Below, in pieces: positions 45,421 through 48,203 of a DNA stretch of 60,323 nt; the stretch's first letter is position 1, and each line of letters begins with the position of its first letter. Where the stretch lies: positions 1 to 60,323 of the forward strand of contig JAJCYI010000176.1 in assembly GCA_029263015.1 (NCBI GenBank). Reading direction: 5' to 3'. This stretch comes from Saprospiraceae bacterium (GTDB lineage: Bacteria > Bacteroidota > Bacteroidia > Chitinophagales > Saprospiraceae). The position numbers and the translations under genes are program-made. The notes under the pieces are model-generated. The model was not told the origin of the DNA. It was given only the letters and a program-made list of their open reading frames with translations, and ran no database searches.

Positions 45421-45470
45421 AATTTTTCCAAAAGGATGGGAATTCAATTCCCATCCTTTTGGAAAAATTA
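45421..45470. terminator. 24-bp perfect hairpin, bidirectional terminator of moeA and lspA
   Basis: Arms 45421-45444 and 45446-45469 are exact complements around one central C (the inner bases act as loop). The core includes GGATGGGAATT / AATTCCCATCC, with A- and T-runs at the outer ends. The lspA stop codon (45468-45470) overlaps the right end. Confidence 0.9.
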
Positions 45471-46184
45471 TGGCTGGGCACTTTCATCTTCCACTCCCAA
45501 CGTACTTGAGCCTTCCGCCAATTCTTCCTTTTCATTTTTATCGTCTTCATTCTCTTCCGGCCCACTAAAAAAATCACGGTGAAAGAGCAGCAAACTTATT
45601 ACACCAACAGTAATGGATGCATCTGCCACATTGAACACAGGCTGAAAAAAGAGGAAAGTCTCTCCGCCCCATACTGGGAACCATTCTGGGAAAGTACCTG
45701 AGAACATAGGAAAATAGAACATGTCCACGACCTTGCCATATAGAAAACCTGCATAACCGCCCCCTTCTGGGAAAAGTGTGGCCACCTCCAATGAATGAAA
45801 AGATGAATTTGAAAATAGGAGGCCGTAAAACGCACTATCGAGAATGTTGCCGATAGCGCCAGCAAGGATAAGCCCAAAACATGCCACCAGTCCAAAAGAG
45901 ACTTTGGCCTTGATAAGTAATTTTAAATAATAAAGTAGAAACCCGACTGCGGCAATGCGGAAGAGACTCAGCACCAATTTGCCGTAATTGCCTGGGAGTT
46001 CGATGCCAAAGGCCATGCCTTCGTTTTCGACAAAATGGATTCTTGCCCAAGAGGTTGTCCACCAGCCCCAATCATCGAAAGAGTCTTCGTTGAGGGACAT
46101 ATTGGTTTTGATCCAGATTTTAAGGGCCTGGTCAATGATGAGAACTCCGAATATGATTAGGGCAACTTTTACTTTAGGCTTCAA
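45468..46184 (-). CDS. lspA: Lipoprotein signal peptidase LspA
   Basis: Inner-membrane aspartyl peptidase that cleaves diacylglyceryl-prolipoproteins before the lipobox Cys. The 238-residue protein has four membrane helices and both catalytic aspartates: Asp116 in GAIGNILDS and Asp188 in FNVADASIT. The N-terminal IIDQALKIWIKTNM and the FVENEGMAFG motif match the family. The large periplasmic insertion between the aspartates and the acidic C-terminal tail (about 205-238, rich in Glu/Asp) are longer than in E. coli but common in Bacteroidota. A lipoprotein substrate candidate in this window is the 6889 product. The 160-bp element copy B lies just upstream. Confidence 0.95.
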   Translation of the reverse strand: MKPKVKVALIIFGVLIIDQALKIWIKTNMSLNEDSFDDWGWWTTSWARIHFVENEGMAFGIELPGNYGKLVLSLFRIAAVGFLLYYLKLLIKAKVSFGLVACFGLILAGAIGNILDSAFYGLLFSNSSFHSLEVATLFPEGGGYAGFLYGKVVDMFYFPMFSGTFPEWFPVWGGETFLFFQPVFNVADASITVGVISLLLFHRDFFSGPEENEDDKNEKEELAEGSSTLGVEDESAQP

Positions 46185-46247
46185 AATGTTGTATTTTGTT
46201 GTATTTCAATTTTCAAAGCCGCAAAGTTCAATTAGTTTGAGCATTTT

Positions 46248-46407
46248 AGGAACGGTCAAATAATAAATTCACGATTTTAGGGTGAATTATTTTTTTCTCT
46301 GACAAGGCAAAAAACGCAGGCATAGCAGCAATACGGCAAGTATTTTTAACGACGTCAGAGGAGAAAAGAATCAGCAGAAAACGGCAAGTTATTATTTGAC
46401 CGTTCCT
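46248..46407. mobile_element. 160-bp palindromic MITE-like element, copy B
   Basis: Perfect 19-bp terminal inverted repeats AGGAACGGTCAAATAATAA (46248-46266) and TTATTATTTGACCGTTCCT (46389-46407). The interior has CTCTGAC facing GTCAGAG and a centre GCATAGCAGCAATACGG, similar to copy A at 18304. No reading frame. Confidence 0.65.
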
Positions 46408-46414
46408 GAAAAAC

Positions 46415-46448
46415 AAAAAAGTGATTGTAAGGGTACAATCACTTTTTT
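46415..46448. terminator. Strong bidirectional terminator without an adjacent gene
   Basis: 15-bp stem AAAAAAGTGATTGTA / TACAATCACTTTTTT, loop AGGG, with T-rich tails on both strands. No coding gene ends near it; it would end the candidate minus-strand RNA. Confidence 0.85.
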
Positions 46449-46616
46449 AAATAAACTCCTATTTTCGGAGCGGAATGCATTGTCTTATTAAATAACCCTA
46501 ATTTACTAGGGTGTTATTGGTTATACATTCCTTAGTATCAGTAAGTTAGTCTGTAAGATAATAGTATCAGCAAGTGGGTTTTAAGTGTCCAAGGGTAAGT
46601 GCTTCGCAGAAAGGAT
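46415..46616 (-). ncRNA. Candidate small structured RNA of about 200 nt
   Basis: A promoter (46620-46649, minus strand) and a strong terminator (46415-46448) enclose about 200 nt without a reading frame. The RNA could fold into a long hairpin in which GGAATGTAT (46531-46523) pairs with ATGCATTCC (46480-46472). Inside this AATAACACCCTA pairs with TAGGGTTATT, leaving a large internal bubble. Direct repeats TAGTATCAG(T/C)AAGT, as read on the plus strand (46533-46546 and 46562-46575), mark the 5' part. A 6S-like role is possible but only inferred. Confidence 0.5.
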
Positions 46617-46619
46617 GAG

Positions 46620-46649
46620 CAAATATAATCCTTATGATTAATAATCAAA
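46620..46649 (-). promoter_or_regulatory. Promoter of candidate small RNA (TTTG-N18-TATATTTG)
   Basis: On the minus strand TTTG (46649-46646) and TATATTTG (46627-46620) match the Bacteroidota -33/-7 consensus with an 18-nt spacer. Transcription would begin near 46614 towards lower coordinates. Confidence 0.55.
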
Positions 46650-46785
46650 AATTCAATATCAAAAGTTTATCAATTTGATTAAAGTAAATTCATTTTTTTG
46701 AACCACAGGGAACACAGGGCTAAACCGTAATAAATACTTCTTATGTGCCTTTTGTGGTTCAAATTTAAGGCTGATATTCAATGCA

Positions 46786-47847
46786 CTACCTGCTCTCATC
46801 CATTTTTGCATATACCCACAGGAGCATTTTTTTGGCTTTTTGATTACCAGGCTCCAAATCCATAACAGTGTGGAGGTCGTTCACCGCTGCTTGATATTGA
46901 GTTATTTGCGTTTTGGCTTCACTTTTCAAAAGATAACATTCTATGCAAGTATGATCAAGGTCGAGGGCGATATCGAAACTTTCGATTGCAGCTTCATGCT
47001 TACCCATTTCCATTTCCAATTCCCCCAGGACAAAATAGACTTCAGGCGCTTTGGGGTCGAGGCGTATGGCTGCTTTTACATCGGAAAGGGCCGCTGTAAA
47101 ATTATTGGCCAAGATTCTACATTTGGATCGCGCAAGCAACGTGCGGGTACTGGAACGTACCGACAGCGCCATTTGGAAATCAGTATCCGAATTTTGTATT
47201 TCGCCTAAATAAAAATGGCAAATGGCTCGGTTGGTCAGTGCGTCAATATTTTCAGTATCATTTTCAATAACGCGGTTCAAAAATCGAAGTGCATAGGAGT
47301 GTTTTCCCAGTTCCATCAGGGCAGCTGCTTTCCCAAGACAGGCCTGTGGGTGACCGGGATCATTGTATAAAATTTCATCGAAATCAGGCAAAGCAAACTT
47401 GGGCTTCCCAACAGCAATATAACTGATGGCCCTGGCCAGTCTGAGTTCGTCAGTCGGTTGGTTATCAATGGCAAAATTGAAAGAGAGGATGGCCTGTGGG
47501 TATGCTCCACGGTGATAAAGTGCCAGGCCGTACAGGCCATAAGCTTTTTCGAACATCGGGTTGATGGCCAGTAGTTTTTCAAGGTGCAGCTCTGTTTCCA
47601 GGTAATCGTTCATCTGAAAATAAACCAAAGCCAAATGGTACCAAGCGGCCTCTAACCGAGGTGATTCATCCAGTGTCGTACGCAGCAATGCAGCAGCTTC
47701 AGGCCAGTTAGCATTATTGTATTGTTGTTCAGCCATCTGAAATGTACTGGCCTGTGGTTGGTGCGCGACTCCGCTTATTTGAGAGAAAGTAAGATTGGTG
47801 AAAATCAGGATAAACAGTATCGCCCATCCGGTATATAAGAACCTCAT
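46786..47847 (-). CDS. Exported tetratricopeptide-repeat protein
   Basis: A 353-residue protein from ATG 47847 (MRFLYTGWAILFILIFTN, signal peptide to about residue 23); ATG 47883 would add 12 residues. The rest is a continuous array of roughly nine TPR units, with the typical 34-residue spacing and W-L-G-Y-A-F-A-P pattern, for example AAWYHLALVYFQMNDYLETE, AYGLYGLALYHRGAYPQAIL and VYFVLGELEMEMGKHEAAI. TPR arrays are protein-binding scaffolds. Bacteroidota use many in envelope and T9SS-linked complexes, but no specific partner is indicated here. It diverges from the glucosaminidase gene. Confidence 0.88.
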   Translation of the reverse strand: MRFLYTGWAILFILIFTNLTFSQISGVAHQPQASTFQMAEQQYNNANWPEAAALLRTTLDESPRLEAAWYHLALVYFQMNDYLETELHLEKLLAINPMFEKAYGLYGLALYHRGAYPQAILSFNFAIDNQPTDELRLARAISYIAVGKPKFALPDFDEILYNDPGHPQACLGKAAALMELGKHSYALRFLNRVIENDTENIDALTNRAICHFYLGEIQNSDTDFQMALSVRSSTRTLLARSKCRILANNFTAALSDVKAAIRLDPKAPEVYFVLGELEMEMGKHEAAIESFDIALDLDHTCIECYLLKSEAKTQITQYQAAVNDLHTVMDLEPGNQKAKKMLLWVYAKMDESR

Positions 47848-48203
47848 AGTACTCCTGTTTTTGTGTAGTTGTGTAAATTTCAATTATATTGGTGAGCAGC
47901 AATTGTTTTGCCAAAAAAATCATTAAAACTATTGATAATCAGATTGGTACATGTTTGCGTAAAGATGATTTAAGGTACGTATAATGTTGTGTGTTATCCT
48001 TAAAATACTGATAATTGATTGTTTACAGTTTTTCATTTTTTTTAATATAAAAATATTAAAGATATAAAAGATGGTATTCTTCTTGCATTTATATATTTTG
48101 AAATAATTCACTACATTACTTTGAGGCAAGAAATTGTTGCAGTTATAACTTTGGAGGCGAAGTTTGCAACAATAGACTTATTAACATTTTAAAATCCCTG
48201 GAC
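47848..48203. other. AT-rich divergent intergenic region
   Basis: No gene seen. It contains the promoter of the glucosaminidase gene at 48120-48153; no clear promoter was found for the TPR gene. Confidence 0.5.
48120..48153 (+). promoter_or_regulatory. Promoter of the glucosaminidase gene (TTTG-N22-TAACTTTG)
   Basis: TTTG 48120-48123 and TAACTTTG 48146-48153 fit the consensus with a 22-nt spacer. The leader to ATG 48204 is about 45 nt. Confidence 0.6.

Follow-up and report, generated by a model that had tools for sequence, protein, structure and literature searches.

A transcription unit left by a TraR/DksA-family gene in a Saprospiraceae bacterium and its possible retention as a decoy for a genus-specific small RNA

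Results

A promoter and a terminator between the TPR-repeat gene and lspA

The window (the whole stretch of DNA analysed, 60,323 nt of contig JAJCYI010000176.1 of a Saprospiraceae bacterium) carries on its minus strand, between a TPR-repeat gene and lspA, a promoter that is followed after ~170 nt by an intrinsic terminator (Table 1). The genome of the window is termed G000, the other 13 genomes of the genus are G001-G013, and G014 belongs to a neighbouring genus; dksL is a name coined here for the lspA-linked gene of the TraR/DksA family. A preliminary description of this DNA had reported the promoter-terminator pair as having no gene, which is borne out: both signals were located, the list of open reading frames (≥60 aa) has no entry overlapping 46415-46649 on either strand, and the three forward frames of 46617-46412 hold short fragments at most and no peptide candidate. 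The leftover RNA would be ~205 nt long, and its counterpart in the sister genome G010 ~335 nt.

Table 1. Coordinates of the unit, its neighbours and the candidate sRNA locus of the same genome
Feature	Position	Strand	Basis or remark
Promoter, TTTG-N18-TATATTTG	46649-46620	minus	homologue of dksL promoters in the genus
Conserved 5' block of the transcript, CCTTTCTGCGAAGCACTTACCCTTGGACA	46614-46586	minus	identity of G000 and G010
Repeat copy 1, ACTTGCTGATACTAT	46575-46561	minus	second, weaker possible sRNA site with one G-U pair
Repeat copy 2, CTAACTTACTGATACTA	46549-46533	minus	remnant of the dksL translation start; 17 nt exactly complementary to the putative sRNA seed
Decayed first dksL codons	46533-46514	minus	blastn against intact dksL starts
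Imperfect hairpin	46531-46472	minus	predicted fold; without a match in the sister genome G010
Intrinsic terminator of the former dksL unit (34 nt, 16 pairs)	46448-46415	minus	homologues in relatives
Repeated element with inverted ends GGAACGGTCAAATAATAA / TTATTATTTGACCGTTCC, outside the RNA	46411-46244		many partial copies in the same genome
lspA, downstream neighbour	45468-46184	minus	named by sequence and position
TPR-repeat gene, upstream neighbour	46786-47883	minus	name from the preliminary description
Candidate sRNA locus, G000	C132, about 370-670	plus	reversed motif, promoter-like box, terminator-like hairpin

The 14-nt direct repeat described near the 5' end is real and proved to be the informative feature of the element: ACTTGCTGATACTA(T) at 46575-46561 and ACTTACTGATACTA inside 46549-46533 are identical at 13 of 14 positions. 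The long bubbled hairpin that had been proposed is the predicted minimum-energy fold of the element, but without the terminator the stability of the fold (-26.9 kcal/mol, z -1.33; 19 of 200 shuffles at least as stable) is about that of chance, and the hairpin at 46472-46531 gave no same-strand blastn match with G010 better than E 2.9. Including the terminator, z was -4.23 and none of 200 shuffles was as stable. We therefore regard the promoter, the terminator, the repeat and the absence of a reading frame as solid, but not the structured body. By eye, a further small hairpin may form at 46613-46602 (CUUU-CUGC-GAAG); the predicted fold does not contain it.

Matches to 46200-46790 in its own genome numbered 45, of which 43 lie on the flanking repeats and two are the region itself; at that sensitivity, with 40 of 234 candidates scored, the RNA part is single-copy. 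The element at 46244-46411, between the terminator and lspA, has long partial copies of 78-82% identity and shorter ones of up to 93%. A short dyad repeat, GAACCACAGGGAACACAGGG...TTTTGTGGTTC, lies at 46699-46761 and has partial copies in several other contigs.

Relation of the unit to dksL

A TraR/DksA-family ORF of ~125 aa is found at the lspA-TPR place in 12 of the 13 other genomes of the genus. TPR, dksL and lspA are on a single contig in 7/13 (G001, G004, G007, G008, G009, G012, and G013), dksL adjoins lspA only in four (G002, G003, G005, and G011), and in G006 it adjoins the TPR gene only, at a contig break. Both dksL proteins tested (L101 and L102) passed the cut-off of PF01258 and did not reach the NCBIfam DksA cut-offs; no PF01258 ORF is present at the window locus.

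Intact dksL units have a TAnnTTTG-type promoter (TTTG-N18-TACATTTG in G012, spacing read by eye) and a start region that agrees with ACTTACTGATACTATG at 12-16 of 16 positions, and 10 of the 12 end in a AGTGATTG...CAATCACT terminator with a T run, those of G003 and G005 being different. The window unit has a promoter of the dksL type, the start region in the form ACTTACTGATACTAAG, and the terminator. By blastn it matched the dksL start of G005 over 34 nt (82%, E 1.4e-4), running into codons 1-6, and that of G012 over 30 nt (80%, E 0.02); the position of the start codon, 46533-46531, reads AAG. Homologous terminators were found in 11/13 genus relatives. The terminator alignment has 12 rows (10 intact units, G000, and G010; G003 and G005 were left out), 10 of them picked by a pattern that fixes part of the stem, with G001 and G006 added. 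In these rows, selected in part by that stem pattern, 98.5% of 132 stem cells are paired and 4 of 11 pairs are changed on both sides, whereas sliding the partner by 1-3 columns gave 20.6-70.5% pairing. Because the dksL promoter, start region and terminator are all present, we concluded that the unit without a gene is a dksL unit minus its coding sequence; the element is almost certainly, as judged by homology, a transcription unit whose TraR/DksA-family gene was lost.

No dksL copy was found elsewhere in G000 or G010 (G010 is 94% complete). Each of the two genomes has one DksA-family hit, and both hits fall outside the lspA-linked clade (13 rows, support 100/100), on which ground relocation of the lost gene was rejected. 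In this tree the row G008_C11 is very long and its placement is unsure.

Conservation between G000 and its sister G010

In the lspA tree G000 and G010 are sisters (100/99). G010 has the promoter and leader behind its TPR gene, with no ORF there and with lspA on another contig; TATATTTG of the promoter is kept (the -33 box is TTTA), as are the 5' end, the start-region sequence and a terminator. At fourfold sites of lspA and nrdJ the two genomes are identical at 81/239, i.e. saturated. The promoter and 5' end are identical at 77/98 positions (blastn 98 nt, 78.6%, E 8e-20), and the pairing site described below at 16/16 (blastn E 4.5e-4; P 3e-8 at the fourfold-site rate, for a site chosen after the fact). 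Over 46619-46586 the identity is 29/34 (P 9e-10 at the same rate). On the same strand, blastn gave nothing below E 0.2 except this 98-nt block and the 16-nt site, which lie in the same order; opposite-strand matches of 14 nt (E 0.006) and 54 columns (E 0.019) look like low-complexity chance. A 27-position pattern from the 5' block (≤3 mismatches) was matched in 2/298 genomes, G000 and G010. A direct DNA search matched 44 of 148 genomes, the own genome included, at E≤0.1, and of these we accepted G010 alone (E 2e-10) as homologous. The conservation anticipated in the preliminary description thus holds for the promoter, and also for the 5' end and the terminator, but not for the long stem.

By parsimony, a single loss of dksL on the shared G000/G010 stem would be the simplest history, with two genomes to judge by. 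A shared loss would mean that selection outlasted the protein; two separate losses would let selection on the old mRNA explain the conservation.

A candidate sRNA gene of the genus

A search for ACTTACTGATACTATG covered 20 genomes, among them 13 of the genus. Beyond the dksL sites, a second place in reversed orientation is present once in each of 12/13 genus genomes and reads, on the strand of the putative sRNA gene, ..GTCTATAGTATCAGTAAGTTAGATAGGCTCCTG.. followed by a hairpin and T run. A 30-nt stretch of this locus was found with 0 mismatches in 12/396 genomes, all of the genus (12/14 genus genomes, 0/382 others). Since the G005 locus is a variant that lacks one base, the sRNA appears to be present in 13/14 genus genomes; searches with the motif and with the 30-nt stretch did not find it in G003. 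All 12 aligned loci end in a terminator-like hairpin plus T run, and a TAnnTT box is kept in 12/12 (by eye); in G000 the promoter reads TTTG-N20-TACCTTCG (by eye), and the locus lies upstream of an ORF which, from its resemblance, we take to be a dihydrolipoyl dehydrogenase. Six of the loci were run against Rfam, and none matched at E≤1. The reversed-motif locus has the look of an sRNA gene whose seed is nearly invariant and whose transcript would be ~300 nt long. Folding predicts partial pairing of this seed, with a mean unpaired probability of 0.39 in G000 and 0.31-0.75 over the 12 loci.

An ATG frame of 11 codons (MRNIKSGFLLP-like) is found near the sRNA 5' end in 5/12 genomes (G001, G004, G006, G009, and G011) and is absent from the other seven loci, G000 and G010 among them. 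We do not take the peptide as a common product of the locus, and in those five genomes it may be made. By eye, the 5' part of the sRNA, TTCCGTGAAACAT, is similar to the conserved block at the 5' end of the dksL leader (TTTCTGTGAAACAC in G010; 46614-46602 in the window), which would make it a short element common to both.

Predicted pairing of the window RNA with the sRNA

Copy 2 of the repeat is predicted to form an exact duplex of 17 nt with the seed (-27.5 kcal/mol), a value reached by 0/1000 whole-element shuffles. The copy 1 duplex (-20.4 kcal/mol) is weak alone, because 18/1000 such shuffles reach it. The predicted mean unpaired probability is 0.84 for copy 2 and 0.64 for copy 1. G010 has one clear site only (-24.0 kcal/mol, 0/300). 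Shuffling both sRNA flanks gave 0.143 for copy 2 and 0.207 for copy 1, i.e. no clear pairing beyond the core. The window RNA has what a sponge would need in the way of a conserved site, a 17-nt complement of the putative sRNA that is 16/16 in G010, and it may be expressed from the promoter, which is conserved, as is the terminator.

The motif in nrdJ, dnaA and other leaders

Across the 14 genus genomes the 12-mer TTACTGATACTA occurs 44 times, and a reversed control pattern 5 times. By context, 13 places are in the sRNA gene, 7 at the dksL place (counting the window and G010), 11 in the nrdJ leader (G001, G003-G009, G011-G013), 6 in the dnaA leader (G001, G002, G004, G006, G007, and G013), two (G003 and G005) in a frame that we take to be like ribosomal protein L27, and five are single (G001 C55, G008 C16, G010 C110, and G011 C88 and C215). 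At dksL, nrdJ and dnaA every occurrence lies on the mRNA strand. The names NrdJ and DnaA come from NCBIfam matches of partial proteins, which stayed below the whole-protein cut-offs; the G002 nrdJ match comprises residues 251-455 only, and its leader is not covered. No dnaA was seen by eye in the first 16 kb of G000 C132, and the dnaA leaders of G000 and G010 were not located.

Duplex strength was compared with that of shuffled leaders. At the dksL place 14/14 genus rows were at ≤7/300 (11 at 0), for dnaA 6/6 rows were at 0/300, and for nrdJ 9/11 rows were at 0/300, with G003 at 1/300 and a weaker G000 at 7/300. The dksL leader of the outgroup G014 gave 147/300, no pairing signal. The rows of G003, G013 and G014 were scored with a consensus seed, and the nrdJ leaders of G007 and G011 are outside that set. 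Because the motif itself had served to find part of these rows, the shuffles confirm the strength of pairing and are not an unbiased discovery. When the core was held and the sRNA flanks were shuffled, 16/33 rows were at ≤0.05 (dksL 6/14, nrdJ 5/13, dnaA 5/6; the rows are related) and 17/33 above; chance would give ~1.7/33 for independent rows, which these are not. The nrdJ leaders of G007 and G011 were unremarkable here (0.557 and 0.580). Without amounting to proof, the flank-shuffle result favours RNA pairing over a DNA operator.

In the nrdJ leaders L251 (G005) and L247 (G003) the motif stands just before a GC-rich hairpin and T run, ~120 nt before the start. This hairpin is a possible attenuator switched by the sRNA.

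Discussion

Proposed role of the leftover RNA

The homology to dksL units, the loss of the coding sequence, the conserved site and its complementarity to the seed lead us to the following proposal. In the ancestor, dksL mRNA would have been transcribed from the window promoter, and the genus-wide sRNA could have paired with its translation start, as it would still cover the dksL start codon in the relatives. Pairing of an sRNA over a start codon usually blocks translation. On the G000/G010 stem the coding sequence would then have been lost while the promoter, 5' end, sRNA site and terminator stayed. The leftover RNA may act as a decoy that binds the sRNA at one strong and one weaker site, lowers the amount of free sRNA, and so relieves other targets, nrdJ and probably, or perhaps, dnaA. 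A decoy is the simplest role, because the RNA has sRNA sites and nothing to translate. We infer that both RNAs are made, that they pair, and that the effect has this direction. The case for a sponge function of the leftover RNA we regard as evenly poised, and the account as a whole, a unit that lost dksL and was retained as an sRNA decoy, is on balance the best explanation. Somewhat more doubtful, though plausible, is a fuller version in which the unit is a counterpart of pseudogene decoys: a promoter-leader-terminator shell under selection, its site doubled in one species, that serves as a dedicated sponge for an sRNA linking dnaA, nrdJ and a DksA-family regulator.

The main rival is a functionless relic, in which the dksL coding sequence was lost, the rest has not yet decayed, and the RNA, if made, does nothing. 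The coding sequence is plainly lost and a repeated element adjoins the unit, as this reading would have it, yet the 5' block and the pairing site were kept while fourfold sites became saturated (81/239), the sequence between them has no same-strand match below E 0.2, and two separate, fairly late losses would be required; we consider such a relic unlikely, while giving it serious weight. The good conservation of the 5' block (29/34), which lies outside the pairing site, would also fit a stand-alone regulatory RNA with mRNA or protein partners of its own, for which the sRNA pairing would be its own control. This is improbable, as besides the promoter, the 5' block and the terminator only the sRNA site stands out as conserved.

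Less probable still is a role of the motif as a DNA operator, or as a cis element of the leader read by a protein, with the complement in the sRNA gene being a reversed copy. The motif does recur upstream of several replication-related genes, in G003 and G005 it directly precedes the terminator-like hairpin of the nrdJ leader, and the 17/33 target rows above 0.05 have no clear pairing beyond the core. An operator does not, however, account well for a motif that keeps to the transcribed strand in dksL, dnaA and nrdJ leaders and that in the sRNA gene is antisense, beside the terminator and >200 nt from the promoter; 16/33 rows were at ≤0.05 with the sRNA flanks shuffled, and the nrdJ site of G010, where the motif is partly lost, still pairs (-26.5 kcal/mol, 0/300). 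The preliminary description had suggested a new small RNA, possibly 6S-like, i.e. one that binds RNA polymerase. A short non-coding transcript is still the best guess, but its resemblance to 6S RNA (RF00013, RF01685) went no further than the length of ~200 nt and the predicted bubbled hairpin, which was not found in G010 and is about as stable as chance (z -1.33 without the terminator), and its parts are homologous to a DksA-family mRNA, a different origin. Rfam found no family at the gathering score over the window and 10 matches at E≤10 in 46300-46800, none of a 6S family. RF00013 and RF01685 had no match in the whole genome either, a blank that is little informative because RF00013 passed its cut-off in 4/14 control genomes and RF01685 in 0/14. 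A 6S-like RNA was rejected, and we give it next to no credence. Set against these readings, a retained decoy is the explanation that we carry forward.

Comparison with known systems

We compared the proposed decoy with published systems. In Escherichia coli, ChiZ and the chbBC spacer, both derived from target mRNAs, sponge the sRNA ChiX (PMC7815308). The likeness is that the 5' leader of a target mRNA, with its pairing site, is present as a separate short sponge RNA; ChiZ, however, arises from a living gene by premature termination and is experimentally proven (PMC7815308), whereas in the window unit the coding part is gone, the leader would be a unit of its own, and the sponge is proposed here from sequence. 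EcpR1 of Sinorhizobium meliloti is a conserved sRNA that represses dnaA and pairs with dnaA and another cell-cycle mRNA (PMC4414408). It is similar in that several mRNAs including dnaA would be reached through one conserved stretch; it belongs to a distant clade, no homology is claimed, and the sRNA of the window genus has further matches in nrdJ and a DksA-family mRNA, with a sponge proposed for it. Rfp18, an sRNA of the Bacteroidota member Flavobacterium psychrophilum, is likewise predicted to reach several mRNAs through a single pairing region, but its predicted targets, metalloproteases and an adhesin, are different (PMC9723704). Bacillus subtilis has an active antisense RNA that overlaps the dnaA leader (PMC12112137). 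What would set the window case apart from ChiZ/chbBC, EcpR1 and the B. subtilis antisense RNA is the disappearance of the target gene. Among the open-access papers listed for such decoys, no title or abstract opening names a bacterial sponge from a gene without its coding sequence.

If the proposal is true, it describes a birth route for regulatory RNAs, in which the protein is lost and the binding site is kept. The apparent sRNA regulon, with one seed matching dnaA, nrdJ and a DksA-family mRNA and with six loci lacking an Rfam match, may connect replication with dNTP supply and a stringent-type regulator. Conserved TTATCCACA / TGTGGAAAA repeats that resemble DnaA boxes lie upstream of the nrdJ leader (L236, L240, L255, L257, and others), so that DnaA may also act on nrdJ. 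In L286 (G010 C110), a lone TTACTGATACTA at reverse-strand position 2418, behind an ORF, stands directly before a terminator-like hairpin, and this motif is a possible further sRNA site in G010.
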